Under the pieces are notes generated by a model, which saw nothing but the letters and a program-made list of their open reading frames with translations, was not told the origin of the DNA and did not search any database. The position numbers and the translations under genes are program-made. From Spirochaetales bacterium (GTDB lineage: Bacteria > Spirochaetota > Spirochaetia > DSM-2461): a stretch of DNA of 64,000 nucleotides. This document shows, in pieces, positions 18,510 through 60,173 of the stretch; within the stretch, counting starts at the first letter, position 1, and every line of letters begins with the position of its first letter. Location: contig JAQQAP010000008.1 of NCBI GenBank assembly GCA_028533045.1, positions 124,001 to 188,000 of the forward strand. Reading direction: 5' to 3'.

Positions 18510-20759
18510 ATGAGACAATTGCTATCGAGGCTTAAATGGATTATTCTCCTGGCCGGTTTGACCGTAAGTCTTTCCGCCCAGGATAACTATGTGACAAGCG
18601 GAGACTTTGCCGCGATGAGGAGCTCCATTGACTATCTTTGGATTGTTGTGGCCGCATCGCTGGTTTTTCTTATGCAGGCCGGATTCATGGCGGTGGAAGC
18701 GGGACTTTCCCGGGCGAAGAACTCCATAAATGTGGCTATTAAAAATGTGGCCGACTTTATTATTGCCGCCGCCGGTTTTTGGATTGTCGGCTTTGGCTTG
18801 ATGTTCGGCGACAGTTTGGGGGGATTGTTCGGAACCACCGGCTTCTTTGTGGAAATGGACGATACCTGGACGGCGGTCTTTTTCCTGTTCCAAGTAGTCT
18901 TTGTGGGGACTTCTGCGACAATTGACTCCGGTTCCGTGGCGGAACGGACCAAGTTCGCCTCCTACCTGATTATGAGTTTGATTACATCCGTTCTCATATA
19001 TCCCGTTTTCGGGCACTGGGCCTGGGGGAGCTTCTGGCAGGGGACCTCTTTCGGCTGGCTGGAAGGGAAGGGGTTCATCGATTTTGCCGGTTCCACCGTG
19101 GTTCACTCGGTGGGGGCCTGGGTCGGCCTTGCCGGAGCGATTATCATCGGTCCCCGAATCGGGAAGTTCGATAAGGACGGGAAGGCCAAAAAAATCCCCG
19201 GTCATAATCTTCCTTTGGCGTTTCTTGGGGTGTTCATTCTGTTTTTTGGCTGGTTCGGTTTTAACGGGGGAAGTACCCTGGCTGCCAACGATCAGGTCCC
19301 GGGTATTATTGTTAATACGGTTATGGCCGCCAGCTTCGGCGGGCTCTCTGCGGGTATCCTCAGTTGGGTTCTTTCTCCCAACCGCCTTCCCGAGCCGGAG
19401 ATGATCGGAAACGGGATTTTAGGCGGCCTGGTCGCCATTACAGCGGGATGCGCCAGCTTTGGGATTCAGGCATCCGTCGTAGTCGGTATTGCCGCCGGTT
19501 TTCTGATTTACTTTGGCATCTGGTTCCTGGAGAATGTCCTTAAAATTGACGATGTGGTAAGCGCCATCCCGGTTCACGGGTTCTGCGGGGCCTGGGGTAC
19601 TTTTGCGGTAGGGCTTTTTATCAAGCAGGAGTATCTTGATGCGGCCCATATGACCCGCCTGGATCAAATCGGCATTCAGAGCTTGGGAGTTATCTCCGCT
19701 TTTATCTGGTCCTTCGGCCTGGCTTTTCTCTGTTTGAAAATGATTAACGGCGTCCTGGGGCTCCGGGTGAGCCGGGAACACGAAGAGATGGGGCTGAATG
19801 TGGCCGAGCACGGTTCCAGTTCCTCCCTTCTTGAGCTGATTAAAACCACCCGAGAGGTAATAGAAAAAAAAGAGTACGGCAAGGAGATCTCGATTAGCAA
19901 TATCGAACACGGGACCGAAGCGGGAGTCCTTGCCGAAAGCTTTAACGAAATGATGAAGGGGCTGCGGGATGACTTTAATGCTAAAGAGGAGCATCTGAAC
20001 GCCCAGAAAGCCCATATTGAGAAGGCCCGGGCCCAGGAAACCATGCTCCGTTTGAATGTGGACGAGGGGATAAGGAATATCCTCCAGGTTATGGCCAAGG
20101 CCAACGAGCTTTCCCGCAGTGTGGAGAGCGAATCCATGTCGGTGGCCAAATTCGCCCATGAGACGAAGGATAATGTTGCCGTATCGGTCCAGAGTATCCA
20201 GGAAGTCCTGAACAACATGGAAGAGATTCGGACGACCAACACCCGTACCATAGACAGCATGAAGGAGTTGAATAATCAGATCGCCAACATCTGGGAAATA
20301 GTGAAAATCATCTCCAAAGTGGCCGATCAAACCAAGATTCTCGCGTTCAATGCAGAGTTGGAAGCGAATGCCGCCGGTGACGCGGGGAAGAACTTTACCA
20401 TCGTGGCGAAGGAGATCCGGCGTCTGGCGGACAGCACCCTCGGTTCCTCCAAAGATATACGAATCAAGATTACCCAGATTCAGAAATCCTCCGAAGCGCT
20501 CATCGGCTCTGCCAACAATACCTTTGGGGTCATTGAGCAGGGAAATACCCTCTCTTCGGAGATGAATAACCGCATTCTAAAGATTGAGGGAACCTCTACT
20601 GCTTCGGCTTCTTCCGCCGATGTGATTGCCGATTTTATCAATCAGCAGGTGGAGAGCTACAATACGATCTACCGCACTCTTAAGGACATCAGTTCCCAGA
20701 TTGATCAAAGTGAGATAGGGGATGTCGATTATGATGATCCCGCTCTTCTTGAAGTCTGA
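18510..20759 (+). CDS. Ammonium transporter-chemoreceptor fusion (Amt-HAMP-MCP)
   Basis: 749 residues. A signal peptide (about 1-23) is followed by a full Amt/Mep/Rh domain of about 11 helices (residues about 35-425). The pore twin histidines are present, His199 in DFAGSTVVH and His356 in IPVHGFCGAWG, with Asp191. A HAMP-like segment (about 465-490), a coiled coil and an MCP signalling domain follow. The tip is ADQTKILAFNAELEANAAGDAGKNF, the same variant as its operon partner. Amt fused to a histidine kinase is known; fusion to an MCP would make an ammonium chemoreceptor. Whether it also transports is open. It is convergent, with a 2-base gap, to the che/cyclase operon. SD aaaagggagag. Confidence 0.92.
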   Translation: MRQLLSRLKWIILLAGLTVSLSAQDNYVTSGDFAAMRSSIDYLWIVVAASLVFLMQAGFMAVEAGLSRAKNSINVAIKNVADFIIAAAGFWIVGFGLMFGDSLGGLFGTTGFFVEMDDTWTAVFFLFQVVFVGTSATIDSGSVAERTKFASYLIMSLITSVLIYPVFGHWAWGSFWQGTSFGWLEGKGFIDFAGSTVVHSVGAWVGLAGAIIIGPRIGKFDKDGKAKKIPGHNLPLAFLGVFILFFGWFGFNGGSTLAANDQVPGIIVNTVMAASFGGLSAGILSWVLSPNRLPEPEMIGNGILGGLVAITAGCASFGIQASVVVGIAAGFLIYFGIWFLENVLKIDDVVSAIPVHGFCGAWGTFAVGLFIKQEYLDAAHMTRLDQIGIQSLGVISAFIWSFGLAFLCLKMINGVLGLRVSREHEEMGLNVAEHGSSSSLLELIKTTREVIEKKEYGKEISISNIEHGTEAGVLAESFNEMMKGLRDDFNAKEEHLNAQKAHIEKARAQETMLRLNVDEGIRNILQVMAKANELSRSVESESMSVAKFAHETKDNVAVSVQSIQEVLNNMEEIRTTNTRTIDSMKELNNQIANIWEIVKIISKVADQTKILAFNAELEANAAGDAGKNFTIVAKEIRRLADSTLGSSKDIRIKITQIQKSSEALIGSANNTFGVIEQGNTLSSEMNNRILKIEGTSTASASSADVIADFINQQVESYNTIYRTLKDISSQIDQSEIGDVDYDDPALLEV

Positions 20760-20761
20760 TC

Positions 20762-22513
20762 TTACTTGAAATCCAGGGTGACAGCCCCGTCCCAGGAACC
20801 TTCCGGAGCTTTTTCCCGGAAGGTTTCGCAGCGCTCGATAAATTGTTTGGTGGGAAAGTCATCGGCAATGAGTTTCAGGGCATGGTTCAGATATTTCAGA
20901 GCAATTCTCCAGTTCCCGATGATATACATGCGAATCCCTTTCTCATAGGAATCCCGCCAGTCTTCGGAAAATCTTTCCCCCTCAATTTCCAGGGAGTAGA
21001 TTCGGGTGGATTCGCTCTTTCCTTTTACCCTGGCAATGTCCACAAGCCGGGAATAGTGCTCCCGATCCAGCTGGTTTCTCACTTCCTCGGAGATGAGAAT
21101 GGGAACCCGGTAATGCTTTGTTAAGCTTTCGAGGCGGGCGGCCAGGTTTACCGTATCTCCAATGGCGGTGTAGTCAAATTTCTCCGAACAGCCTATGTTC
21201 CCGATGATGGCTTTTCCCCTGTTTAATCCCACCCCAATGGAGAATCCTCCCTCGGGAAGTTTTAAATAGGAGGTATCCGTGTTGGGATATTCCTCTATCA
21301 TCATTTTGGCTGCCCGGGCCGCTCGGGCCGCATTGTCCGGATAGCTGACTGGGGCCCCGAATATGGCATAGATCGCATCGCCGATAAATTTGTCGATGGC
21401 CCCTCCCTGCCACTGGATAATCTCTACCATATTGCTAAAGTGGGAATTGAGAAAATTGACCACGTTGTCCGGTGAGTTCTCTTTCATTATTTGTTCGAAA
21501 TTTCGAATGTGGCAGAAGAGGACGACAATGGTTCTGTTCTCTCCTGTCATGAGATCCTCGTCGGAATCTTTTATAATCAGATCGTCTATAATCTCCGGAG
21601 GGAGGAATTTGGTGAAGGCGCTATAGATGGTTTCCGTTTCGCCTTTCTTTTTCTGAAAGCGGTTGTAGAGAGCTATCATCCTTACGATATGGGCGGTGAG
21701 TTTTAGTCGGCTTTGGGAGGTGATCTTGGCCCCTTTTCTTCCCTCTTTACCGGATATTACGACTCCCCTTTGGCGTACTTCGGGAATCTTCAGACCATCA
21801 TAATAGGAGAGGGTTTTTTCAAAGTCCTTGTTTTCCTCTTTGTTTAGGGCCAGGTTACGGCATTGGGTAAAGAGTTTCTTCTCTTCGCCCTGATCCATTG
21901 GCTTGGCGTAAAAATGTTCTTCCGGTCCCAGGGGTGTTTCAAAGCGAATATAGGCGAAGTCCGAGTGAAGTACGGACATGGTTTGCTGTAAAAGTGTTTG
22001 GTAAAAATGTTTTTGGCTGCTAACGTCCACCGCTCCCAACTCACGGGCGCAGTAAGCTTCATGGATATTGATGAGCAGGGAGGCCTTGGAGCCCGCTTTC
22101 ATCTGATTTTGCGAGGAGGGCCAATCGGGGTTTTCCGATGTCTTTAGAAAACGGTTAGTTTTATGTGTCCTGCTTTGGTGCAGGATTTTCGCCAGGGCGA
22201 TTTTGGTCTCCTGCCGGGAGATATCTTCCCTCCCCAGACTCATTTTAACGGGGAACAGAGGGGCTTGTTCGTGGTCACCCATAAATACCAGGGGAACTTC
22301 TCTTAATTCGGGGAGGGAGCTAAGGAAGAAAATCAGAGAGGCGATGTCCGGGCAGAGGCTGTCTCCGAGCAAAATCAGGGAAGGGGATTTTTCATAGAGT
22401 TCCTTAAAGAAATCTTCCTGAGTGGAGGCCCACAGGGGATTGAACTGTTTAAGTTCATTAATTGTCAAAGCGGCCATTAATTGTGATGATTCCCCGTATA
22501 GTATGTCTCCCAT
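20762..22513 (-). CDS. Class III nucleotide cyclase subunit, C2-like: first metal Asp replaced by His
   Basis: 583 residues. A receiver-like N-terminus (about 1-110, phospho-acceptor not convincing) precedes a middle region that may be GAF-like (about 145-290) and a class III cyclase homology domain (about 320-490). In the domain the first metal-binding position is His335 (LFCHIRNF instead of LFSDIRSF). The second metal Asp379 and the adenine-selecting Lys375 and Asp453 are present. The transition-state pair is intact: Asn456 and Arg460 in VNLAAR. It therefore resembles the C2 half of a paired cyclase. A short tail of about 70 residues looks TPR-like. It is the last gene of the che operon, and its ATG directly follows the stop of the partner cyclase. 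Confidence 0.85.
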   Translation of the reverse strand: MGDILYGESSQLMAALTINELKQFNPLWASTQEDFFKELYEKSPSLILLGDSLCPDIASLIFFLSSLPELREVPLVFMGDHEQAPLFPVKMSLGREDISRQETKIALAKILHQSRTHKTNRFLKTSENPDWPSSQNQMKAGSKASLLINIHEAYCARELGAVDVSSQKHFYQTLLQQTMSVLHSDFAYIRFETPLGPEEHFYAKPMDQGEEKKLFTQCRNLALNKEENKDFEKTLSYYDGLKIPEVRQRGVVISGKEGRKGAKITSQSRLKLTAHIVRMIALYNRFQKKKGETETIYSAFTKFLPPEIIDDLIIKDSDEDLMTGENRTIVVLFCHIRNFEQIMKENSPDNVVNFLNSHFSNMVEIIQWQGGAIDKFIGDAIYAIFGAPVSYPDNAARAARAAKMMIEEYPNTDTSYLKLPEGGFSIGVGLNRGKAIIGNIGCSEKFDYTAIGDTVNLAARLESLTKHYRVPILISEEVRNQLDREHYSRLVDIARVKGKSESTRIYSLEIEGERFSEDWRDSYEKGIRMYIIGNWRIALKYLNHALKLIADDFPTKQFIERCETFREKAPEGSWDGAVTLDFK

Positions 22514-24088
22514 TCAGCTTTCCTTTGGAGTATAGAGCCCTTCCGGCCACTCTTCGTCCTTTCCCTTTTCCAGTACGGTGATGAGGGGGACTCTCTTTGA
22601 GACAGCCCGGGCCACATCGGCGGTAAAGAGAATGTTTTTTTTATAATGCTTGGTGATTCCTTCCAGCTCTTCTGCAATCCCTATTACGTCGCCAATGGCG
22701 GTAAAGGCTCTTTTTGCGTTAGAGCCTATGTTCCCGATAATGGCATCCCCCCGGTGTACGCCGATTCCTATGCGGTAGTGCTCTTCCGAGAGAATCAGGT
22801 TGCTGCAATCCACGTCGGCTACACAGTCTATCATCTCCCTGGCGGCCTGTACGGCACAGAGAACCGGATCCTCCTCTCCTTCGGACAAGCCAAAGATGGC
22901 CACGATGGCGTCACCTATGAATTTATCTATGGTTCCCCCGTACTTTTTGATTTTGTCTACCATGGCCTCAAAGTGGCGGTTGAGGAACTCCACCACATCC
23001 TTGGGGCTGTTGTTCTCCGTTATGGTGGTGAATGAACGGATATCGGAAAAGAGCAGGGTTATCTCCTTCTTTTCTACCTTCCGGGCGCTTTGCTCCCGCT
23101 CCTGTTCTATGAGGTCGGGAATGATATGGGGCGGGACGAATTTGGAGAAGATATTGAAAATCTTCTCCTGCCTTATGGAGTTAAGCGTACTGTTGAGAGA
23201 GTAGTTAAGGGGATACTCCATTTGTCTGGCGTAGCTCCGAATTTCATCCAGGAGGGCTCCTTTGAAGTAGTTGTTATTCAAATGTCCCATATGGAGGCTT
23301 CCCACGGGACTGCCGTCGGAGTCGTTTAGGGGGAGGTAGTAGTAGGAGCTGATTTTTTGGCTTCTCCCGTTTATCCGATTAAAGGACTCTTCGTCGCCAA
23401 AAAGGGTTTCCCGGGGATTTTCCATATCCGCTCCCTGGAAGAGCCGGTAGAAATCGTTAAGGCAGAAGCCCAGAAAGTCCTCATAGTCTTCCCTGACTAT
23501 CCCTTCGGAAGGATAGATATAGGAGTCTACACTGTGGTTGTGGTGGAGGAGAATCACGGCCAGGTGGGTTTGAGTGATTTCCTTTAGTTTTCCCAACAGG
23601 AGGCGGATTGTTTTGGAAAGGACCTCCGTTTCGTAGGGAATGGCCCCTATGTTGCTGCCCACTGTTAATTTCTCCAGAGCGATTAAGAGCCTGTGATTCG
23701 TTTCCTGTTCGGAAAGATCTATGGTCAGGGGGGTGATGATTTTCCGTTTTTCCTCTTTCTTTTCGGTCCCCCTTTCTCCGGCAGAGCGGAAAAAGAGCTC
23801 GCTTGCGGGGTAAACCTCGTCTCCTCCCAGGGCCATGAACAGGTTCTGGAGTTGGGGCGACTCTTTTTTAAGGAGTCCGTAGACCGGCAGTTGGCGGGAA
23901 TTGAAGTACTCCCGGATTCCGCTTAGAACGGCGATCCAGTCGCTCTCTTCCAAATCGAGCAAAAAAGCCCGGGGGATTTGAGACTCCCTTTCAAAGCTGA
24001 GCCGTTCCCGGGAGGGGAGGGGGAGAATCTTATGCTTTTCCCTCCACTTCGTTTCCAGAGTAAGGGAGGGGGACACCATGACAAACAT
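22514..24088 (-). CDS. Class III nucleotide cyclase subunit, C1-like: metal Asp pair kept, transition-state Asn/Arg lost
   Basis: 524 residues. A receiver-like stretch (about 40-102) and a possible GAF-like region (about 130-300) precede the cyclase domain (about 335-500). Both metal-binding aspartates are present (Asp349 in LFSDIRSF, Asp393 in FIGDAI), as are Lys389 and Asp467. The Asn and Arg of the usual VNLAARLE motif are Gly470 and Glu474 (VIGIAEELE). Alone it should be catalytically poor. Its defects complement those of the next gene, so an obligate heterodimer with one full active site is inferred. ATG 24088 lies three bases after the cheA stop and TGA is followed at once by the ATG of the partner, so tight co-expression is expected. 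Confidence 0.86.
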   Translation of the reverse strand: MFVMVSPSLTLETKWREKHKILPLPSRERLSFERESQIPRAFLLDLEESDWIAVLSGIREYFNSRQLPVYGLLKKESPQLQNLFMALGGDEVYPASELFFRSAGERGTEKKEEKRKIITPLTIDLSEQETNHRLLIALEKLTVGSNIGAIPYETEVLSKTIRLLLGKLKEITQTHLAVILLHHNHSVDSYIYPSEGIVREDYEDFLGFCLNDFYRLFQGADMENPRETLFGDEESFNRINGRSQKISSYYYLPLNDSDGSPVGSLHMGHLNNNYFKGALLDEIRSYARQMEYPLNYSLNSTLNSIRQEKIFNIFSKFVPPHIIPDLIEQEREQSARKVEKKEITLLFSDIRSFTTITENNSPKDVVEFLNRHFEAMVDKIKKYGGTIDKFIGDAIVAIFGLSEGEEDPVLCAVQAAREMIDCVADVDCSNLILSEEHYRIGIGVHRGDAIIGNIGSNAKRAFTAIGDVIGIAEELEGITKHYKKNILFTADVARAVSKRVPLITVLEKGKDEEWPEGLYTPKES

Positions 24089-24091
24089 AAC

Positions 24092-26266
24092 TTATCCTAT
24101 GAGATCCCGGACCTTGTCCAGAAGATTTCCCCGGTCAAAGTCTTTCTTGGATACCAGATCATTCCCCCCGATAGAGCGAACTTTCTCCATCAGTTCATCC
24201 TTGTTCTCCGAACTGACCACGATAATGGGGGTGTTCCTGTACTTTGTCTGGCGCCGGACATTTTCTATGAGGGTCAGTCCGTCCATGCGGGGCATTCGCA
24301 CATCGGTAAGAATGAGGTGGAAGTACTGCTCCTTAAGCTTTTCCAGGGCATCGATGCCGTCCACGGCTGTAGAAACGTTAAACTCTCCCATTTCCAGAAT
24401 GGATTTTTCAATTTCCCGGGTGGAAAGGGAGTCGTCCACTACAAGGATCTGTTTGTAATGCTTATCTTCCGGAGTGAACCGTTCTTTGAATTCGATATTC
24501 CTGATTCCTTTGAAGCGGTTTATTAACTCCGGGATGAACAGGATGTTGATAATCTCGAAGTTTTCATCAAAGACGATTCCCTGGAGAACTTTGAGTTTGG
24601 AAAGTTTTCCCGGGAGGGGTTTGAAGATCATGGAGGAAAATTGAATTACCGTGTCCACCGATATGCCTATGATATCCCCCATGGATTCCACCACTACTAT
24701 GGAGAGTTTATCCGACTGGGGCGCCGCTTCCTCATCGAGTAAGGCGGAAAGAGGGTAGACCGGAATAATCATATCTCGCAGGCGTATGACGTTCCGATTG
24801 TACATCATCATTACCTCATCCCTTTTGATGATGAGAATCTCCTTTACAAAGGCGGCGGGAATAAGGAATTTTTTCTCCTGAACCGATACGAAGAAGCCGT
24901 CCACCGTGGCCAGGGAGAGGGGGAGGGACAGTTCAAAATCGGTTCCCTTGCCCGGTTCGCTCTTAACGGTGATTTTTCCCTTGGTTTTTTCCACATTGGT
25001 GCGGACAATATCCAGGCCCACCCCTCGTCCGGAGAGGCTTGTCACCTTTTGCGTTGTGGTAAAGCCCGACTGGAAGAGATAGCTTGAGAGGGCTCCCCGG
25101 TCCATCTTTTGGATCTCCTCCTCCATCTCCGGGTAGAGGGAGATCGCTTTCTGGCGTATGGCGTCGTAATCCAGTCCCTTGCCGTCATCGGAAATCTGTA
25201 TGTTCACTCTCCCGCTCTCGGCGATACATCTTACGGTGAGGTTGCCCCGGGGGGGCTTGCCGGCGCTTTTTCTTACTTCCGGCGTTTCGAGTCCGTGGTC
25301 TATGGCGTTTCTGATCAGGTGGATGACCGGGTCGTTTATATGTTCCAGAATGGCCTTATCCAGCAGAATGTTGGAGCCGATTATCTTGAATTCCACTTCC
25401 TTTCCTATGAGCAGGGAGATCTCTTCCACCATTTTCTTTAAGGGATCCATGACAATGTTAAGGGGAAGCATTTGGAGACTGAGGATATCTTCCTGAAGCT
25501 CAAAGCTCATATGTTCCAGCTGGACCATCTCGTCTATGTAGGTCTTCCGTATGTCCTGAGTCAGCTTGAGATCTTTGCTCAGGTTTTTAATTACCCCTTC
25601 CGTTTCGGCCTTTCCCGGGAGATTTCTCAGCCTTCTTAAACTGTCGCGCAGGCCCTCTTCAAGAAGGGCGAGATTTTCGTTTTCCCGTTTAAACTGGAAC
25701 TGCTGGATAATGACCCCATTCAGCTTTTTGACTATATCATCGATTTTGCTGACTTTGATTCGGATGGTCTCATAATCTCCCAAGCCTCCCGTATCATCGC
25801 TCTCCTCCTCGGAAAAAGAGCCCGATGTCCGGTCCGCTGGGGATTTGAAGTCATCCTCCAGGTCTTCAATAGAGTAATTCTGCCCCGATTCGGCCTTGCG
25901 GAAGAGTTCCCTGAGCTTTTTGATCTGAATGTCGTCCGTCCCGGAGACTTTTACTTTCTTGAGTCCTTCCTCCATATATCCCACGGCGGAAAGAACAAGT
26001 TGAAAAAGGCTGTTGCCCAAGGGAACCTTCTTTTCCCGGACGCCCTTAAAGAGGTTTTCCAATTCATGGCTGATGGATTCGATCTTTTTGTAATCCATCA
26101 TTCGGGCGGCTCCCTTAAGGGTGTGGAGAAGCCGTAATAACTCGGCCAGGTTTTCCCTATCCTCCGGGGTTTTTCTCAGGGCAATGATGATGTCGCTCAG
26201 GGCGGTGAGGTTCTCTCTGGATTCGCTGACGTAATTGTCAATAAAAGACTTTTTATCGATGGCCAT
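24092..26266 (-). CDS. cheA: Chemotaxis histidine kinase CheA with C-terminal receiver domain
   Basis: 724 residues. HPt domain with phospho-acceptor His48 in LLHTLKGAA, an acidic linker, dimerisation helices, HATPase_c (N box HLIRNAIDHG, G1 DDGKGLD, G2 GRGVGLDIV), a CheW-like domain and a C-terminal REC with acceptor Asp655 in LILTDVRMP. The fused receiver is typical of alternative (non-flagellar) chemosensory systems and can act as a phosphate sink or output. No separate CheY is encoded in this operon. It overlaps cheR by 14 bases and is followed after three bases by the first cyclase gene. Confidence 0.95.
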   Translation of the reverse strand: MAIDKKSFIDNYVSESRENLTALSDIIIALRKTPEDRENLAELLRLLHTLKGAARMMDYKKIESISHELENLFKGVREKKVPLGNSLFQLVLSAVGYMEEGLKKVKVSGTDDIQIKKLRELFRKAESGQNYSIEDLEDDFKSPADRTSGSFSEEESDDTGGLGDYETIRIKVSKIDDIVKKLNGVIIQQFQFKRENENLALLEEGLRDSLRRLRNLPGKAETEGVIKNLSKDLKLTQDIRKTYIDEMVQLEHMSFELQEDILSLQMLPLNIVMDPLKKMVEEISLLIGKEVEFKIIGSNILLDKAILEHINDPVIHLIRNAIDHGLETPEVRKSAGKPPRGNLTVRCIAESGRVNIQISDDGKGLDYDAIRQKAISLYPEMEEEIQKMDRGALSSYLFQSGFTTTQKVTSLSGRGVGLDIVRTNVEKTKGKITVKSEPGKGTDFELSLPLSLATVDGFFVSVQEKKFLIPAAFVKEILIIKRDEVMMMYNRNVIRLRDMIIPVYPLSALLDEEAAPQSDKLSIVVVESMGDIIGISVDTVIQFSSMIFKPLPGKLSKLKVLQGIVFDENFEIINILFIPELINRFKGIRNIEFKERFTPEDKHYKQILVVDDSLSTREIEKSILEMGEFNVSTAVDGIDALEKLKEQYFHLILTDVRMPRMDGLTLIENVRRQTKYRNTPIIVVSSENKDELMEKVRSIGGNDLVSKKDFDRGNLLDKVRDLIG

Positions 26267-27704
26267 TGATCGTTCCTTTTTCTAATTTTGCTAGTCCGTT
26301 TTTACAGATTTCCAGAAAATAGCGGGCATTGAAGCCTTCCAACAGGAATTGATAATCAATCCTGTTCTGCTCTATATAGTCATTAATTTGATCTATGAGG
26401 ATTTTAAGTTCCGATTCCTTCCGGGCCCTGCTGCTCTCCAGGGAGAAGAGGGAAAAGTATCGGGCGGGCCAAAAGCGGGGGTTCTCTTTGAGGCTGGAGG
26501 CAAGGTATTCCGAGGCCTTTTTCCCATCCCCCATTTGAAGGGCGATAAAACCACCCAAATAGTTGTACAGACTGGAAGGGAAAAGTTCTGCGGGGAGATC
26601 GTCAAAGGAGCTGTTTGCCCGGGAAAGCTCTCCCGATTCAATCAAATAAAGAAGGGCCACGAGTTTTTCCGCCAGTTGGTGTGTTTGGTTTTCCTTTTGG
26701 AGGGAACAGCTGTTGTTGAGAATGTCGGTAATGAGGAGGCAGAGTTCCTCTTCCTTGGGAGGAGTGAAAGGAGGTTCTTTCTTTTGGTCTGTGGTGACTT
26801 CCTGCCGGTGAGGCAATCGGTTGGGAGGCTGGGGGGCGTCCTGTGTTCTGAGGGTATTTTCTTCCAGGGTGCTCTGCAGTTTTTGGCGGCTTAGGGTCCT
26901 GGGGTCTCTTTTTCTCAAAAAGTAGTAGCCCTCCCTTTCTTCTACCTGAAGTTGGGGGTGGGAAATCAGGGCTACTTCCGGGGCGGCGGTAATGAGCAAG
27001 CCCCCCACCCGAAGATGTCTGGTGAATTTATCTATGATTTTGTGCTTGTTGCGGCTTTCCATGTAAATGAGGGTGTTCTTGAGAAAGATCAGATCCATGG
27101 GAGGCAGGAATTCAAAGCTGTCTTCAAAGAGATTGGTTCTATGTATATTAATTTTCTCTATGATTCTTTGATCTATGCACAGCCGACCTTCCCTGTCCTG
27201 TCCCTTTTTAATTCTGTCCAGTAAGTAGTGGTGCTCCTGACCGTCCTTGCGAAGGGCCTTGCCGGCGTAAACCCCTTTTTTGAAGTGGTCCAGAACCTGT
27301 TGGTTAATATCCAGAGCATGGACGGTAAAGAGTGCTTCCGGCAGGGAATTCATGAGGAGGGCGTAGAGGGAGAGGGCCTCTTCCCCGGTGGAGCATCCGG
27401 CGCTGAGCACATTGATGCTTTTTCCTTCCCTTATATAGGAGGGGATTATATGCTTTTCCAGGAAACGAAAAGATTTTTCCTCCCTAAAGAAGTAGGTTTC
27501 ATTGATGGTGATAAAGTCGATGAGGGCCTGGAACTCTTCCTTGTCTTCTCCGAGGAAGGAGAGGTACTCCCCGGGCTTCCACTGTTTTTGAGTTATCCTG
27601 CGATTGATGAAGCTTTCCATATTCAGCTCGTTTATGGGGATTGTGCCAATACCCGTTTTCTCTTCAATCAGTGAGGTAATACTCTGTTCCAGGGGGTAGC
27701 TCAT
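26253..27704 (-). CDS. cheR: Chemotaxis protein methyltransferase CheR with helical repeat tail
   Basis: 483 residues. The N-terminal CheR helical domain and the SAM-binding domain (LSAGCSTGEEALSL, then HALDINQQVL) fill about 1-275. A linker and a C-terminal region with TPR-like helices (PAELFPSSLYNYLGGFIALQMGDGKKASEYLASSL) follow. It methylates glutamates of receptors, using S-adenosylmethionine. The start is set at ATG 27704, which overlaps the cheB TGA (ATGA); a TTG nine bases upstream is less likely. The TPR tail could dock it to a particular receptor or array. Confidence 0.93.
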   Translation of the reverse strand: MSYPLEQSITSLIEEKTGIGTIPINELNMESFINRRITQKQWKPGEYLSFLGEDKEEFQALIDFITINETYFFREEKSFRFLEKHIIPSYIREGKSINVLSAGCSTGEEALSLYALLMNSLPEALFTVHALDINQQVLDHFKKGVYAGKALRKDGQEHHYLLDRIKKGQDREGRLCIDQRIIEKINIHRTNLFEDSFEFLPPMDLIFLKNTLIYMESRNKHKIIDKFTRHLRVGGLLITAAPEVALISHPQLQVEEREGYYFLRKRDPRTLSRQKLQSTLEENTLRTQDAPQPPNRLPHRQEVTTDQKKEPPFTPPKEEELCLLITDILNNSCSLQKENQTHQLAEKLVALLYLIESGELSRANSSFDDLPAELFPSSLYNYLGGFIALQMGDGKKASEYLASSLKENPRFWPARYFSLFSLESSRARKESELKILIDQINDYIEQNRIDYQFLLEGFNARYFLEICKNGLAKLEKGTINGHR

Positions 27705-28735
27705 AGGCGGCAAAGTTCCTTGATGGTCGAGGCCATTTTGTCCAGGGGAAGAATGCGGGAGGCTCCGTTCCTCTCGGCCGCCGCTTTGGGCATTCCGTAG
27801 ATGAGTGAACTTTCTTCATCCTGTACGAGTGTTGTTCCCCCGGCGGTGACAATTTCTACGCAGCCCTCGGCCCCGTCCTGTCCCATACCGGTAAGGAGGA
27901 CGGCCAAACCCTCTTTGCCGTATTTTTTGGCCACGGAGGTAAACATTTTATCCACCGAGGGTTTCTGGTTGTTGTAGCGGGGGGAGTCGTCACAGTAGAT
28001 TCGGGCTCCCTGGCAGAGGAGATGGCGGGTTGCCGGGGCGACCAGGGCTGTTCCCGCTTGAAGGGTATCCGTTTCTTTTGCCAGACGGACCGTAAGTTCC
28101 GTTCCCGAATTAAGCCAACTGGCATAACCGGCGTCAAAGCCTTCTTCTATATGCTGGGAAATGATGATGGGCAGGGGAAAGTCTCCCGGGAGGCCGGAGA
28201 GTAGGGTTCGGACGGCCGCTGGGCCTCCCGTTGAGGCACCTATGGCCAACACAGAGAAGGTACTGGTCCTCTTTTCTATTCTTTCCGGTTTGGTCTCTGC
28301 TGATTTTGCCATTTCGCCCCGGGGTTTTCGTCCTTTCTGAATCCGGAATTTTCCGTATTTAGATATATTCTCAAGAACGCTTTTAAAATTCTCTATAAAG
28401 CCGGGGGCATTCATTTTATCTACGCTGGGCTTGGGAATTAACTCCAGAGCCCCGTTGTTCAGAGCTTTATATCCCACTTCTGAGATGTCTTCGCTGGTGA
28501 GAATGACAATGGGAACCGGGGCGATTTCCATGATTCTGCCCGTGGCTTCTATCCCGTCCATGACGGGCATGTTCACATCCATGAGAATGAGGTCCGGTTC
28601 AAGCTCTTTTGCCATCTCTATGGCCTTCTGTCCGTTCCCCGCTTCACCGGCCACCTGGAACCCCTCAACGGAAGAGATGATTTCTTTTAAAATGGAACGA
28701 ATCAGGTATGAATCGTCAACAAGTAGTATTTTCAT
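27701..28735 (-). CDS. cheB: Chemotaxis response regulator protein-glutamate methylesterase
   Basis: 344 residues. REC domain with acceptor Asp53 (LILMDVNMPVMDG), a linker, then the methylesterase domain with the nucleophile Ser168 in GASTGGP, the histidine in ISQHIEEGF and the aspartate in GMGQDGAEG. It removes methyl groups from receptors when phosphorylated by CheA and so provides adaptation. Start ATG 28735 overlaps the stop of the CheW-like gene by four bases. Confidence 0.95.
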   Translation of the reverse strand: MKILLVDDSYLIRSILKEIISSVEGFQVAGEAGNGQKAIEMAKELEPDLILMDVNMPVMDGIEATGRIMEIAPVPIVILTSEDISEVGYKALNNGALELIPKPSVDKMNAPGFIENFKSVLENISKYGKFRIQKGRKPRGEMAKSAETKPERIEKRTSTFSVLAIGASTGGPAAVRTLLSGLPGDFPLPIIISQHIEEGFDAGYASWLNSGTELTVRLAKETDTLQAGTALVAPATRHLLCQGARIYCDDSPRYNNQKPSVDKMFTSVAKKYGKEGLAVLLTGMGQDGAEGCVEIVTAGGTTLVQDEESSLIYGMPKAAAERNGASRILPLDKMASTIKELCRL

Positions 28736-29262
28736 AGGCTTTTTCCTCTAAGAATATTGATCAGGCATTTTTGGAGATGAATGAAAAACTGAATTTTCCC
28801 CTCCTCCACGAAGCGGGAACCAAGCAGGGCGTGGTCCTGAAGCAGGCTGTCCACCCCGGGGGGATTCAGATTCATCTCTTCCAGAGGAAGCTGTTGGATC
28901 TCCGCCTGACTGGATATGATGATGCCGATAACTTCCTGGCTGAATCGCTTGTTTTGTCCCAGGACTTTCCGGAGAATTTTTTCGTATGGGGGAAAGGTAT
29001 CTTCCAGTCTGATTATAAGGCATACCTGGGATTCGCTGTCTTCCCGGGTTTCATACTTATCCATCAAGAAGCGGTTCAGGTCGCAAAGAAGCATCTTTTC
29101 CTCATTGTAGTCGGTATATTGACAGAAATAGGGGTTGCGTGATCTGAGGGAGGTGACTTCCTCGATAGATGCGCTGGCGGAGAATTGCTTTCGGCTAATA
29201 AGAAAATCCTTGTCCCGGTAATTCAGCACAAGGAAATCTCCCGCTTCTCCCTCAATAGGCAT
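28732..29262 (-). CDS. Divergent CheW-like or unknown chemosensory protein
   Basis: 176 residues without signal peptide or membrane helix. The first half (DFLVLNYRDKDFLISRKQF...SIEEVTSLRSRNPYFCQYTDY...LLCDLNRFLMD) has the strand pattern of the start of a CheW domain. The rest (QVCLIIRLE...KVLGQNKRFSQEVIGIIISSQAEIQQLPLEEM) also fits, but without a clear family signature. It sits between cheW and cheB, overlapping both (11 and 4 bases), with a strong SD (ggaggagg). A second adaptor tuned to this array is the simplest guess; I do not recognise it with confidence. Confidence 0.6.
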   Translation of the reverse strand: MPIEGEAGDFLVLNYRDKDFLISRKQFSASASIEEVTSLRSRNPYFCQYTDYNEEKMLLCDLNRFLMDKYETREDSESQVCLIIRLEDTFPPYEKILRKVLGQNKRFSQEVIGIIISSQAEIQQLPLEEMNLNPPGVDSLLQDHALLGSRFVEEGKIQFFIHLQKCLINILRGKSL

Positions 29263-29779
29263 CGATATCCTCCTCCATCCGGGTAATGACCGAAGCCAGA
29301 TTCAGTACGAATATCTCTTCGTCGTGGGGACTGATCGAACCAAGGAAGAAGTCGTCATCCTTTATGGTGGATGTTATTTTGTGTAGTTTGCTTTCTCCCA
29401 GGTTTACAATCTCCAACACGTCGGAGATGAGAAGAGCCAACTGGTCGTTTTCTTTTTTGAGAACGAGAAAAGTGGAGGATTCGAGCTTTTTGTTCTCCAG
29501 CATGGCCGTAATATCCAGGACCGTATAAGGTTCCCCGTGGCGATTGATAAAGCCCCTAAGGTAGGGCGGCGTAAAGGGGACGTAAAAGATGGGCGTGTTG
29601 CCGATTATCTCCTTAACCTCATCGGCGAAAAGGGCGTATTTTTTATCATCTATACTGATTATCATGTATTTGATGAATTTTTCGATTCGTACGCCCTCTC
29701 CCTGCTCCGGGTTTTTGCGTGACTCCTTGATCCGCTGGAGGAGGGGATCGTCATGGGTCTTTTTTAGGCTTTCAGGCAT
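29252..29779 (-). CDS. cheW: Chemotaxis adaptor CheW
   Basis: 175 residues. An N-terminal extension of about 30 polar residues is followed by a typical CheW domain: KYMIISIDDKKYALFADEVKEII, a YLRGFINRHGEPYTVLDI core motif and ALLISDVLEIVNL. It links receptors to CheA in the array. SD aaagga precedes ATG 29779, four bases after the MCP stop. It is one of two adaptor-like genes in the operon. Confidence 0.9.
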   Translation of the reverse strand: MPESLKKTHDDPLLQRIKESRKNPEQGEGVRIEKFIKYMIISIDDKKYALFADEVKEIIGNTPIFYVPFTPPYLRGFINRHGEPYTVLDITAMLENKKLESSTFLVLKKENDQLALLISDVLEIVNLGESKLHKITSTIKDDDFFLGSISPHDEEIFVLNLASVITRMEEDIDAY

Positions 29780-29783
29780 CTTT

Positions 29784-30968
29784 CTATCCTTTCAATTCAA
29801 TTTCTTGGGGTTCTAATTCCAAAGGACTGAACTCGCTGGCGGAGTTCAGAGCCTCATAGGAAACTTTTACTTGGTCCGTAAGCCGGGAGAGTTCTTCCAT
29901 ATCCATTGTCGCTTGTCTGAGTTTTTCCAGAACTTCCCCGGAGGAGGTCACTTGCTCCTGAAAAATATGGCTTATCTCTTCGGTGGATGAGGCGGCTATC
30001 TCGGTGGAGTGCAATACTTCTTCAAATATCTTTTCCAGCTCTTTAGACAGTTTATTTCCTTCGCTTATGAGCTCCGTGCCGTTTTCCGAAGAGATGATCA
30101 GGTTATCCGACGAGTGCTGGATTTCCGTAATCTTCCCTCTTATTTCGTTGGTGGATGAGATGGTGCTGTCCGCCAGCCGTCTGATCTCGGCGGCTACTAT
30201 CTGAAAGTTTTTTCCCGCGTCTCCTGCGGCTGCTGCTTCAAGTTCGGCATTAAAAGCGATGATCTTCGTTTGGTCCGTAATCTGATTGATCATCTTGATG
30301 ATCTCCCAGATCTTCTCGATTCTTTCACTCAGAAAGAGGATCCCCTTGAGAGTATCCCTGTTAGAACTTTCTATTTCATCCATCTTTCTCAGGCTCTTTC
30401 CTACCAGTTCAAACCCACTCAGAAAAGCCTCTTTGAGAGAGAGGGTGATGCGGTAAATTTCTTCAAAATCGTGTGAAATATTTTGAAACAGTTCTCCCCT
30501 GTCTTCCATACCGGACAGCATATCCCGGAGTTGTTCCTTTTGGGTGCGGGCCATTTCGGGGAGCCGGTCGGTGGATACCCCGTAATTCACGCTGGACTCA
30601 ATCAGCTCCTGGCAGTACTGATCCATTTTTTGGGTGGCCCCTTTCTCTTTTTGGTAGAGATTTATTACAATGGTGAAGAGCTTCTTTAGCTCTCCATAGG
30701 GTTCGAAAGAGGGCGATTCTTCTTTCCTGAGAGATTCCAGCATTTTCCCGAACTGTCGGAGTTTTCCCCTTGTTTGTAACAAAAGCAAGACAGATGTCAT
30801 AAGGGAAATTCCCAAAAGGGTCAGGTAGGATGTACTGTGTTCTGTGAGCAGGCCCGGTTCGAGGAAGGGAAAAGCGATAAAAGGTAAGAGGACGAGAGAG
30901 CCCAGGAGGATCAGCCCCCTGGAAAGGCCGATTTTTTTTGTTTTCCCGTTTTTTGGTGCAGAGCTCAT
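29784..30968 (-). CDS. Methyl-accepting chemotaxis protein without a periplasmic domain, non-canonical tip
   Basis: 394 residues. Two adjacent N-terminal transmembrane helices (about 16-36 and 47-64) leave almost no periplasmic loop, so sensing must be membrane-internal, cytoplasmic or indirect. The signalling hairpin has the variant tip TDQTKIIAFNAELEAAAAGDAGKNF seen in the receptors at 16389 and 18510. Encoded inside the che operon, it is probably the core receptor of the array. SD-like aagggg lies upstream of ATG 30968, nine bases after the PilZ gene. Confidence 0.9.
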   Translation of the reverse strand: MSSAPKNGKTKKIGLSRGLILLGSLVLLPFIAFPFLEPGLLTEHSTSYLTLLGISLMTSVLLLLQTRGKLRQFGKMLESLRKEESPSFEPYGELKKLFTIVINLYQKEKGATQKMDQYCQELIESSVNYGVSTDRLPEMARTQKEQLRDMLSGMEDRGELFQNISHDFEEIYRITLSLKEAFLSGFELVGKSLRKMDEIESSNRDTLKGILFLSERIEKIWEIIKMINQITDQTKIIAFNAELEAAAAGDAGKNFQIVAAEIRRLADSTISSTNEIRGKITEIQHSSDNLIISSENGTELISEGNKLSKELEKIFEEVLHSTEIAASSTEEISHIFQEQVTSSGEVLEKLRQATMDMEELSRLTDQVKVSYEALNSASEFSPLELEPQEIELKG

Positions 30969-30977
30969 GGGGACCCC

Positions 30978-31352
30978 TTAGAAAAAATCGGGGAAAAAGA
31001 GCCCGTGGCGGACCTTCTTCATGCCGTCGCTAAAGCCAATGTTGTCTATCAAAAGGCTTATGTCTTTTTCCAGATCACGGTTGCTGTTAAGGATCTCCAT
31101 CCCGTGATAGTAAAGGCCGGTGGATTTGTCCCTTTTGGACCAGCGATTTTCTACGGTAAGGATCAGGTTTTTCTCGAGACGGGGGAGCCGGGAAGACTGA
31201 ATTCGTATTCTTCCCTTATACTCCCTGTTCAGTCTTTTCTCGGAAAGCATGAGGATACCGTTCAGGGAGATATCTGCCAATTTTCCGATTTCCTGTTTCC
31301 CATTGTCTATGCTAAGATAGTAGATTAAAGTTCTTCGTGACTTCTTCCGCAC
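30978..31352 (-). CDS. PilZ domain protein, first gene of the che/cyclase operon
   Basis: About 124 residues. The c-di-GMP-binding signature is visible: an RKKSRR stretch at the start (RxxxR) and DISLNG (D/NxSxxG), followed by the beta-barrel strands and a short helix. The GTG at 31352 is preferred because gagg lies six bases upstream; an in-frame TTG at 31373 gives seven more residues and keeps one more Arg of the motif region. PilZ proteins bind c-di-GMP and change a partner's activity. Its place at the head of the operon suggests that the array, and perhaps cAMP output, is tuned by c-di-GMP. Confidence 0.8.
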   Translation of the reverse strand: MRKKSRRTLIYYLSIDNGKQEIGKLADISLNGILMLSEKRLNREYKGRIRIQSSRLPRLEKNLILTVENRWSKRDKSTGLYYHGMEILNSNRDLEKDISLLIDNIGFSDGMKKVRHGLFFPDFF

Positions 31353-31618
31353 CGGGCACCTCGGTTTTGTCAATTTGATGTTCTTTAATTAATATCGGCA
31401 TTTTTACAATGGGATTTATGGATTTACTAAAAAAACCTACCTACTCGTAGTAAAATGGCTATTTGCCAGGTTGTACCTGTCCTTCCGCCTCTCCAGGCGC
31501 AGAATACCCCTCAAGGGGTATCCATATCCCCCCTGTTGGGAATGGTGATACCCCCTTCCTTCTCACTATTCTATTTCTCAGAAAATGACCAAATCGGTTG
31601 GATTTGAAGGAGTGGATA
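31353..31618. other. Divergent intergenic region between the che operon and the LuxR-type locus
   Basis: About 265 bases, AT-rich near the che side. Apart from the palindrome at 31505-31520 and a C-rich tract (cccccc at about 31528 and 31550) I see no gene. No full consensus promoter was recognised. The che operon and the downstream genes must both be served from here. Confidence 0.5.
31505..31520. promoter_or_regulatory. NarL-like 7-2-7 inverted repeat TACCCCT-CA-AGGGGTA
   Basis: Two perfect heptamers matching the NarL/LuxR-family consensus TACYNMT face each other with a two-base gap. A further TACCCCC lies at 31549-31555. The site is in the divergent spacer between the PilZ/che operon (leftward) and the gene for a membrane LuxR-type regulator (rightward, start 31902). 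Binding by that regulator is inferred only. Confidence 0.5.
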
Positions 31619-57770: not shown

Positions 57771-57799
57771 TTGACAGCTCCCTTTTGACTCCTTAGTAT
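57771..57799 (+). promoter_or_regulatory. Sigma70-type promoter of the second Amt-MCP gene
   Basis: Perfect TTGACA (57771-57776), 17-base spacer, TAGTAT (57794-57799). The gene starts at 57831 with gggagagg as SD. No nitrogen-type -24/-12 (sigma54) promoter was seen in this spacer. Confidence 0.65.
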
Positions 57800-57830: not shown

Positions 57831-60173
57831 ATGGGCAAAAAAAAGTGGGCCGTTCTGGTATTTCTATTCGGGGCGGCCTTTCTGTTTTCACAGGCTAGTT
57901 CTACCAGCGAGATTATCGCTGAGCAGGGTAGAAGAATCGATTTGATAAAAACCAATCTCGATTATGTCTGGGTTGTTCTCTCTGCCATGCTGGTCTTTTT
58001 TATGCAAGCCGGCTTTATGTCCCTTGAATCGGGAATGGCCCGTTCAAAAAACTCCATCAATGTGGCTATCAAAAACCTGACAGATTTCGTATTGGGAGTG
58101 GTAGGCTTCTGGTTTATCGGCTTTGGCCTGATGTTTGGTAAATCCTTTAACGGATTGGTGGGGACGAGCGATTTTCTCATAAATATCGAGAATCCCTGGA
58201 CGGCGGCCTTTTTTATCTTTCAGGCCGTGTTTGTCGGAACCTCGGCCACCATAGATTCGGGAGCCGTATGTGAAAGGGCTAAACTTAAGCAGTATGTCCT
58301 ACTCTCTTTTCTCATGTCCGTACTGATTTATCCCATATTCGGTCATTGGGCCTGGGGATCTTTTCTCCACGGTACCGACCCCTTGTCCGGTGGGGCCGGC
58401 TGGCTCGAAGCCCGGGGCTTTAAAGACTTTGCCGGTTCTTCCGTGGTCCATTCCGTGGGCGGTTGGATGTCTTTGGCGGGTATTATTGTCGTTGGTCCCC
58501 GGATTGGGAAATTTACGGTGGATTCGGTGACGGGGAAGAAGAAGGTCAATAAAATAGCACCGGGAGATATGCGTTTTGTCTTTCTGGGGACTTTTATTCT
58601 GTTCTTCGGCTGGTATGGCTTTAACTGCGGTTCCACTTTGGCTGCGACCGCCGATATTGCCACTATTGCGTTAAATACGACTCTGGCTGCCTGTTTCGGC
58701 TGCCTTGTTTCCTCCATTTTAAGCTGGATTTTTCATCCGGAGAAGAAGATTGAAGGGGAGATGATTGCCAACGGCGTTCTGGCGGGGCTAGTGGGGATCA
58801 CGGCGGGCTGTGCTTATGTAGGAACGGTAGGCTCCGCCATTATCGGCGCTATTGCGGGATTAGTTGTATTTCTGGGGACCCTGTTTCTGGAAAAAGTGCT
58901 CAAACTGGACGATGTGGTCGGGGCGATTCCGGTTCACGGTATGTGTGGGGCCTGGGGGACATTGGCGGTAGGGTTATTTATTCGTCCGGAGCTTCTGGAC
59001 GGTATGACCCGAATGGATCAGATTCAAATTCAGGCCCTTGGGGTTTTCGTCTGTTTTATTTGGTCCTTCGGTTTGGGATTTGTCCTGTATAAAATGACCG
59101 ACCTATTCTTTGGAGGGGTTCGAGTTACCCGGGAAGAGGAAATTATGGGGCTGAATATTGCCGAACACGGGGCCCGCTCGGCTATTCTCGAACTGGCCAA
59201 TACCATGGATGATCTGACCCGCTCCGGAAATTTTAGCGGGAATGAGAAGGTGCACGAAGAACAGGGCACCGAAATAGGTGACCTGGCCCGGCTTTTTAAC
59301 AAGATGATAGACAGGGTAAAAGAGGCCCTGGACGAGAGCCTGGCCCAAAAAGCTGCGGCGGAAGAGATGCTTAACGAAACGAACAGGCAAAAAGAGGAAC
59401 TGGAAAAGACCCACCGCCTCTTGGGGGAAGAGAAGGATAACGCCGCCCGGGCAAGAAAGGAGTATGTGGATCATACCCGGGTAAAACTCTCGGAAGTCAC
59501 CAAAGGCATTGCACTGATGAGGGACGCCATGGGGGAAACATCCCGTGTGACCGAGACGATGAAGACAAACTTTGGCGGCATGAATCGATCTCTTGAAGAG
59601 ATGCTCAGCTTCTTGGGGGATATTAGCTCCCGTTTGGATAGTATGAAAAACATTACCGCTTCTTCGGCCCAGTCTGTTTCGACGTCCCAAGTCTCCGTGG
59701 AGGATCTTCAAAATGTGACCCGGGAAGTAGGGGCCATGGTGGATTACATTAATGAAATTGCCGCCAAAACCCATGTTTTGTCCATTAATTCCCGTATCGA
59801 GGCTGCTCGGGCAGGGGAGAACGGCAAAGGGTTTATTGTTATTTCCGACGAAGTCCGGGAGCTTTCCGATGAAACAACCCGGGCAGCCGGGGAAATCAGC
59901 ATTATGTTGGGGGACATGGAGAATCGCGTGACCAATGTGGCCGCTTCCATGGGAGATATTACCCACATAATGGAAGATATTAATGGACTTAACCGGGAAT
60001 TGGTGGATTTGGTAGAATCCAATGCCCGGCAGTCGGTATCTTTAAATGAACAAACACGAAAAACCGCTGCCGCAGTAAGTGAGGTGGCCGGGGATATTTC
60101 CAACGCCATGGAAACAAGTGAGACCCTGGCTCAAACGGGAGCAGCCGTAGAAGAGGATTTAAGCAAGTTCTAA
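57831..60173 (+). CDS. Second ammonium transporter-chemoreceptor fusion (Amt-HAMP-coiled coil-MCP)
   Basis: 780 residues. Signal peptide (about 1-22), full Amt domain (about 40-440) with twin histidines His207 (DFAGSSVVH) and His369 (IPVHGMCGAWG), a HAMP-like stretch (about 475-505), a long coiled coil and an MCP domain. The tip is AAKTHVLSINSRIEAARAGENGKGF, the canonical type with Arg in the trimer-contact position, unlike the Amt-MCP at 18510. The two proteins share the same plan and much of the Amt sequence but would plug into different arrays. It is a single gene with its own promoter. Confidence 0.92.
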   Translation: MGKKKWAVLVFLFGAAFLFSQASSTSEIIAEQGRRIDLIKTNLDYVWVVLSAMLVFFMQAGFMSLESGMARSKNSINVAIKNLTDFVLGVVGFWFIGFGLMFGKSFNGLVGTSDFLINIENPWTAAFFIFQAVFVGTSATIDSGAVCERAKLKQYVLLSFLMSVLIYPIFGHWAWGSFLHGTDPLSGGAGWLEARGFKDFAGSSVVHSVGGWMSLAGIIVVGPRIGKFTVDSVTGKKKVNKIAPGDMRFVFLGTFILFFGWYGFNCGSTLAATADIATIALNTTLAACFGCLVSSILSWIFHPEKKIEGEMIANGVLAGLVGITAGCAYVGTVGSAIIGAIAGLVVFLGTLFLEKVLKLDDVVGAIPVHGMCGAWGTLAVGLFIRPELLDGMTRMDQIQIQALGVFVCFIWSFGLGFVLYKMTDLFFGGVRVTREEEIMGLNIAEHGARSAILELANTMDDLTRSGNFSGNEKVHEEQGTEIGDLARLFNKMIDRVKEALDESLAQKAAAEEMLNETNRQKEELEKTHRLLGEEKDNAARARKEYVDHTRVKLSEVTKGIALMRDAMGETSRVTETMKTNFGGMNRSLEEMLSFLGDISSRLDSMKNITASSAQSVSTSQVSVEDLQNVTREVGAMVDYINEIAAKTHVLSINSRIEAARAGENGKGFIVISDEVRELSDETTRAAGEISIMLGDMENRVTNVAASMGDITHIMEDINGLNRELVDLVESNARQSVSLNEQTRKTAAAVSEVAGDISNAMETSETLAQTGAAVEEDLSKF

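Follow-up and report, generated by a model that had tools for sequence, protein, structure and literature searches.

A second Amt-HAMP-MCP fusion in a Spirochaetales genome is a predicted ammonium receptor with a candidate partner in an R-type CheA/CheW system

Amt-MCP2 joins an ammonium-transporter-type membrane domain to a HAMP domain and an intact MCP signalling hairpin. It is proposed to be a transmembrane ammonium receptor that signals through the second, R-type CheA/CheW system of its genome (contig C41), a reading that is given an even chance. The gene lies in the window, the 64,000-nucleotide stretch analysed here (C8:124001-188000), which belongs to a 4.2 Mb draft genome in 47 contigs that is 97% complete with 7% contamination. 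Domain order, orthologues, conservation of the tip, residues of the ammonium site and the class of the tip relative to three CheA sets were computed directly. The ammonium ligand, the trimeric state, the direction of signalling and the CheA partner are inferred.

The Amt-MCP2 frame is intact and open over its full length (Table 1), with an MCPsignal (PF00015) match at residues 607-774 (73 bits). The HAMP domain (PF00672) scores 23.4 bits, just below the Pfam cut-off of 25, and both its position and the AlphaFold helices 451-465 and 481-500 fit a HAMP domain. The AlphaFold model, for which the input was an alignment of 17 Amt-MCP proteins, has a mean pLDDT of 81.5 and contains the Amt helices, HAMP-like helices, a helix at 481-530, a low-confidence break at 528-536 and an antiparallel hairpin (536-660 and 662-779) that turns at residue 661. 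The tip text EAARAGENGKGF occupies residues 657-668, and Tsr residues N381, E385 and R388 correspond to N653, E657 and R660, as in a member of the MCP family. The strict methylation-site consensus is a weak test here, as it has no match in Amt-MCP2 and is also missed by the receptors of the CheR/CheB-containing cluster of the window. With its open frame, Pfam domains, predicted hairpin and tip, the second Amt-HAMP-MCP fusion described by the earlier note is real, and it does lie 37 kb from the first (20759 to 57831).

Table 1. Coordinates of Amt-MCP2, its parts and related genes (window positions unless a locus is named)
Feature	Position	Strand	Remarks
Amt-MCP2 gene	57831..60173	+	780 aa, ATG; N-terminal hydrophobic segment, Amt sensor, HAMP, coiled coil, MCP hairpin
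Amt domain, aa 46-448	57966..59174	+	Pfam Ammonium_transp (PF00909), 376 bits
HAMP, aa 452-497	59184..59321	+	starts directly after the Amt C-terminal GLNIAEHG motif
Additional coiled-coil helix between HAMP and hairpin, aa ~498-535	59322..59435	+	fast-evolving
MCP signalling hairpin, aa 536-780	59436..60170	+	arms of 125 and 118 residues
Kinase-contact tip INEIAAKTHVLSINSRIEAARAGENGKGFIVISDEVRELSDE, about aa 641-682	59751..59876	+	R at the Tsr-R388 position is aa 660
Sigma-70-like promoter TTGACA-17-TAGTAT	57771..57799	+	just upstream of Amt-MCP2; consensus match only
HAMP-MCP receptor	16389..18485	+	cyclase-cluster tip as in Amt-MCP1
Amt-MCP1	18510..20759	+	749 aa; cyclase-cluster tip DQTKILAFNAELEANAAGDAGKNF, A at the R388 position
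Two class III adenylate/guanylate cyclase genes	20762..24088	-	
Third chemosensory cluster	24092..31373	-	CheA-REC, CheR, CheB, unnamed ORF, CheW, MCP (29784-30968), PilZ
Window CheA	24092-26266		
Amt-GGDEF fusion	L164:9788-11752		third sensor-type Amt fusion

The Amt-MCP2 gene appears to stand alone in a neighbourhood that is not conserved, and no CheA or CheW gene adjoins it. A scan for NtrC/sigma-54-like sites returned about chance numbers of matches, none of them at this gene.

Ammonium is the probable ligand, judging from what is known of the family. Amt-MCP2 matches PF00909 over the whole domain and retains the pore residues of the Amt/Rh family (W144, S227, F103, F223, H171 and H326 in the numbering of the sensor kinase Ks-Amt5). 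Ks-Amt5 has a high-affinity ammonium site formed by Q24, E31, N47, D50, T51, T109 and T112 (PMC5764959). Q59, E66, N82, D85, T140 and S143 of Amt-MCP2 match six of these seven ligands, the last as a conservative replacement (S for T at 112), and the equivalent of T51 is F86. Among the bulky residues that close the Ks-Amt5 pore (PMC5764959), F27 is kept, and Y30 and F34 are replaced by L65 and M69. The site residues failed as a marker to separate sensor from transporter Amts, being shared by the plain Amts of these genomes. As they also occur in plain Amts of relatives, Amt-MCP2 could both conduct and sense ammonium.

The solved structures nearest to the Amt domain are Ks-Amt5 (Z 63.5) and Sd-Amt1 (Z 62.5-62.6), followed by AmtB (58.1) and then lower matches. 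The three top matches (6eu6, 8qj4 and 8qj3) and the fused MCP output place the domain among sensor-type Amts. In an Amt-MCP from a Rickettsiales MAG (L098:624-3080), both pore histidines are lost (S and N), and this protein may be a sensor without conduction.

Orthologues of Amt-MCP2 form one clade (99%) and are found in other spirochaetes at 60-74% identity; the nearest relatives that carry the gene are spirochaete MAGs. The individual values are 60% for L044, 60% for L074, 61% for L095 and 74% for L073, the last over its 664 aligned residues. The same domain order recurs in these independent genomes, so the fusion is not an assembly error, as the earlier note had argued. The full-length frame is also open in L044, L074 and L095. 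Relative to three orthologues, identity is 77-78% in the Amt domain, 60-63% in HAMP and 60-62% in the 60 residues around the tip, and falls to 26-37% in the linker and coiled-coil arms. A conserved tip on diverged arms suggests that kinase contact has been maintained, and the overall pattern is consistent with a protein that uses its sensor as well as its kinase contact. Among the orthologues, L045 (G020:C66) lies in two overlapping frames and is either a pseudogene or an assembly error, and the tip of the G022 orthologue reads EAARAAE. From these two copies, kinase contact of this type may have been lost in some lineages. A DNA-pattern search for the VLSIN tip, discussed below, returned in other genomes mostly other kinds of MCP.

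The genome holds about 60 MCP genes and three CheA sets, a count that could be off in a 47-contig draft with 7% contamination. The set on contig C37 is F2-like, with CheW-CheR-like, CheX-like and CheY-like genes. F2 is the major chemosensory class of Spirochaetia, and a CheW-CheR-like protein, present among the che genes of this genome, is characteristic of that class of bacteria (PMC7666581). The second set, on C41, comprises CheR, CheW, CheY, CheA and CheB; genes of the C37 and C41 sets were named from their sequences, and CheW domains were identified by Pfam. The third set lies in the window beside the two class III cyclase genes, and Amt-MCP1 and the HAMP-MCP receptor directly adjoin this cyclase set (20762-31373). 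An ORF between its CheB and CheW genes (28732-29262) has no Pfam match and is possibly a diverged CheW. Elsewhere in the window, an MCP fused to ferredoxin and [FeFe]-hydrogenase-like (Fe_hyd_lg_C) domains (33492-35540) has an H-type tip with a short C arm and is likely a redox or hydrogen sensor. A further unusual receptor, L173:2132-4045, joins a FIST-domain sensor to a short MCP domain.

Alignment of the tips of 57 receptors of the genome separates them by the residue at the Tsr-R388 position, which is H in 40, R in 14 and A or S in three. H-type receptors are assigned to F2 on the basis of their number and of the published link between F2 and Spirochaetia (PMC7666581). The canonical R-type tip NMLALNAAIEAARAG is carried by nine receptors that group in a single clade (99%); four of them are encoded on the contig of the C41 CheA, compared with none of the 40 H-type receptors (p = 0.0006). 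The A/S receptors, Amt-MCP1 among them, also form one clade (100%); every one of the three is encoded in the window, next to the third CheA and the cyclases. Across 61 genomes, which are related and so do not represent independent events, the cyclase-type tip motif occurs in nine. Eight of these nine genomes, and none of the 52 others, encode a CheA closely homologous to that of the window (identity of at least 34%, a cut set after the list was seen; Fisher p 3e-9). Tip class and co-occurrence with CheA convincingly tie Amt-MCP1 to the cyclase cluster.

The tree places Amt-MCP2 within the R superclade (97% SH-aLRT) and apart from the nine clear R-type receptors, which have a clade of their own (99%), as do the Amt-MCP2 orthologues (99%). 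Amt-MCP2 shares with the nine the R at position 388 and the superclade, and is not a member of their clade. Its tip is an R-type subtype, KTHVLSINSRIEAARAGENGKGF, common in this genome only to three cytosolic receptors, L162, L168 and L171, which share the wording KTHVLSINSRIEAARAG. Each of these combines a LacI-like Peripla_BP_3 sensor with an MCP hairpin and has no recognised membrane part. The tip had been described in the earlier note as canonical; in this genome most receptors (40 of 57) have H, the canonical tip of the R group is NMLALNAAIEAARAGDAGKGF, and that of Amt-MCP2 is of the VLSIN subtype. The two Amt-MCPs do carry different signalling tips, as that note held, with A at the R388 position in Amt-MCP1 and R in Amt-MCP2.

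The register of the arms was compared by aligning arm profiles outward from the tip with one indel allowed, which yields heptad classes that are relative to one another and not placed against published class models. R-type receptors differ from H-type receptors by +7 residues in both arms, and from cyclase-type receptors by a symmetrical +21, which amounts to roughly three additional heptads close to the tip in each arm of the cyclase type. No symmetrical indel separates the Amt-MCP2 orthologues from R-type receptors. Against the cyclase type, the ungapped fit of these orthologues is worse; a +21 indel lifts the N-arm score from 98 to 126, and for the C arm it is other heptad multiples that improve the fit. 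The comparison with the H-type is ambiguous. As far as the arm-profile method can tell, the two Amt-MCPs do not look like one heptad class, the outcome that the earlier note's idea of two arrays called for.

The second CheA set is the best candidate for the kinase of Amt-MCP2, with chances that are about evenly balanced. Among genomes with an Amt-MCP2 orthologue, G020 has the second CheA and lacks a close cyclase-type CheA. G022 was considered as a genome with an orthologue and without a standard CheA. Given the 32 H-type and 14 R-type tips that it carries and the 85% completeness of its assembly, its missing kinases are most likely an assembly gap, and it was therefore left out of the reasoning on kinases.

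As Amt-MCP2 lies outside the nine-member R clade, it could use another partner. A possible, though doubtful, alternative is that Amt-MCP2 and the three cytosolic Peripla_BP-MCPs form a signalling group of their own, served by a kinase or coupling partner that has gone unrecognised, or by none of the three CheA sets. The tip VLSIN(A/S)RIEAARAG is found in these four and in no other receptor of the genome, none of the four shares a contig with the F2 or R-type CheA, and the two on C8 are the only ones with any CheA on their contig. Furthermore, some relatives carry a 617-residue CheA-like protein with a degraded CheW domain (L284:1231-3084 in G022; also in G006, G015, G018 and G020). However, monophyly of the VLSIN receptors is supported at just 34%, and each CheW gene found in the genome has a place in one of the three known sets, an orphan CheW going to F2 by the published pattern (PMC7666581).

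It is unlikely that Amt-MCP2 instead joins the flagellar F2 array and steers swimming toward or away from ammonium. F2 is the leading chemosensory class of these bacteria (PMC7666581), the H-type receptors assigned to it are the majority, and the heptad comparison with the H-type is compatible with such a placement. Yet receptors of this 48H-like group have EAAHAG tips and usually C arms of about 170 residues, whereas Amt-MCP2 has R and a C arm of 118 residues. The earlier note had suggested two arrays, for example one for cAMP and one for motility. The first half is supported for Amt-MCP1, which is linked to a cAMP-type cluster, and the motility half is not supported for Amt-MCP2, whose tip is R with the VLSIN subtype.

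The two Amt-MCPs share a 64-kb window and an identical domain plan, as would be expected if both served the cyclase-linked array and differed in affinity alone. This arrangement is very improbable given their differences in tip residues, tree position and heptad register: the cyclase-cluster (AFNAELEA) group has an AFNAE tip, A or S at R388 and about three extra heptads per arm, and Amt-MCP2 has none of these. G020 carries an Amt-MCP2 orthologue and lacks both the cyclase-type tip motif and the close CheA. 'Close paralogues' is too strong a term for the pair, given that they share 41% identity and are not close neighbours in the Amt tree. Separate origins of the two fusions are likewise unsupported: a quick tree placed Amt-MCP1 with Amt-GGDEF at 97%, a careful tree gave the same grouping only 56/88, and an AU test did not reject a single Amt-MCP group (p 0.24). 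Least probable of all, and only barely credible, is that Amt-MCP2 is mainly an ammonium channel with a decaying, non-signalling MCP tail; its full pore motif, the absence of two of the three bulky pore-closing residues, the split G020 copy and the G022 tip agree with this, but across three orthologues tip conservation is roughly double that of the arms, and an uninterrupted full-length frame is present here and in L044, L074 and L095.

Under the preferred reading, in which Amt-MCP2 is an ammonium receptor for the C41 system, a trimer of the sensor-fusion-type Amt domain would bind external ammonium. The resulting conformational change would pass from the Amt C-terminal segment through HAMP and the extended coiled coil to set the state of the MCP hairpin. 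The hairpin would control a CheA kinase, most likely that of the second, R-type CheA/CheW system; the flagellar F2 CheA and the cyclase-linked CheA, which would serve Amt-MCP1, are less likely partners. Amt proteins are trimers and MCPs work as dimers. The geometry by which the one would drive the other in Amt-MCP2 is unexplained and counts against the proposal.

Five Amt genes are present in the genome: two plain Amts and three sensor-type fusions, Amt-MCP1, Amt-MCP2 and Amt-GGDEF. Ammonium, a single nutrient, thereby appears to be reported to several separate pathways, namely a cAMP-type cluster, a c-di-GMP enzyme and an MCP. With Amt-GGDEF, one sensing module may report ammonium to three outputs in one cell. 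A broader and tentative reading, held to be the less probable case, is that these outputs (the cyclase-linked array, the second CheA array and c-di-GMP) are independent and that the Amt trimer drives trimers of dimers, for example with the six hairpins of a unit coming from two Amt trimers. To our knowledge, no described chemoreceptor array contains a channel-type sensor with such trimer symmetry, and only a small number of transporter-like sensors with fused signalling domains have been examined at the protein level. A trimeric ammonium channel that drives dimeric hairpins would make communication between trimer and array directly testable. Similarly, H, R and A/S tips beside three CheA sets in one genome offer a natural test of the role of Tsr-R388 in kinase choice.

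The Amt-MCP plan is recurrent across many phyla. About 20 of the best 80 loci from one scan of genome contigs are Amt-MCP fusions, held by spirochaetes, Desulfobacterota, SAR324, Bacillaceae, Planctomycetes, Verrucomicrobia, Alphaproteobacteria and Bdellovibrionota. The remaining loci of the 80 include Amt-GGDEF, Amt-HK and further fusions, the GGDEF and HK labels being by motif only. Amt-HK and Amt-GGDEF fusions are already known; for the Amt-MCP fusion itself, a literature search that took in a minority of subscription journals found no publication.

Among known systems, the Ks-Amt5 histidine kinase (PDB 6eu6, PMC5764959) has an Amt domain 43% identical to that of Amt-MCP2, close in fold (Z 63.5), with a C-terminal output fused to it and an ammonium site of which six of the seven ligands are matched (one S for T). 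It differs in its histidine kinase output, in having no HAMP and in its bulky Y30 and F34, in place of L65 and M69. The Amt domain of the Sd-Amt1 receptor of Shewanella denitrificans (8qj3, 8qj4 and 8qpf) is 44% identical (Z 62.5-62.6), and the PDB titles name it as a receptor with ON and OFF states; its chain of 644-661 residues implies a shorter C-terminal part than that of Amt-MCP2. Amt-MCPs of Desulfosarcina, SAR324, Metabacillus, Gracilibacillus and others have the same Amt-HAMP-MCP order at 35-45% overall identity, and differ in their tips and arm lengths. Amt-MCP1 follows the same plan at 41% identity, with A at R388, the cyclase-cluster tip and another heptad register. On the output side, the Amt-MCP2 hairpin aligns with that of Tsr-type receptors (36H class) over 157 residues, equal in length on both sides, with similar arm lengths and with retention of the tip-core residues N, E and R. 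It differs from them in having no match to the strict methylation consensus, a weak test here, and, as its sensor, a channel-like membrane domain instead of a periplasmic ligand domain.
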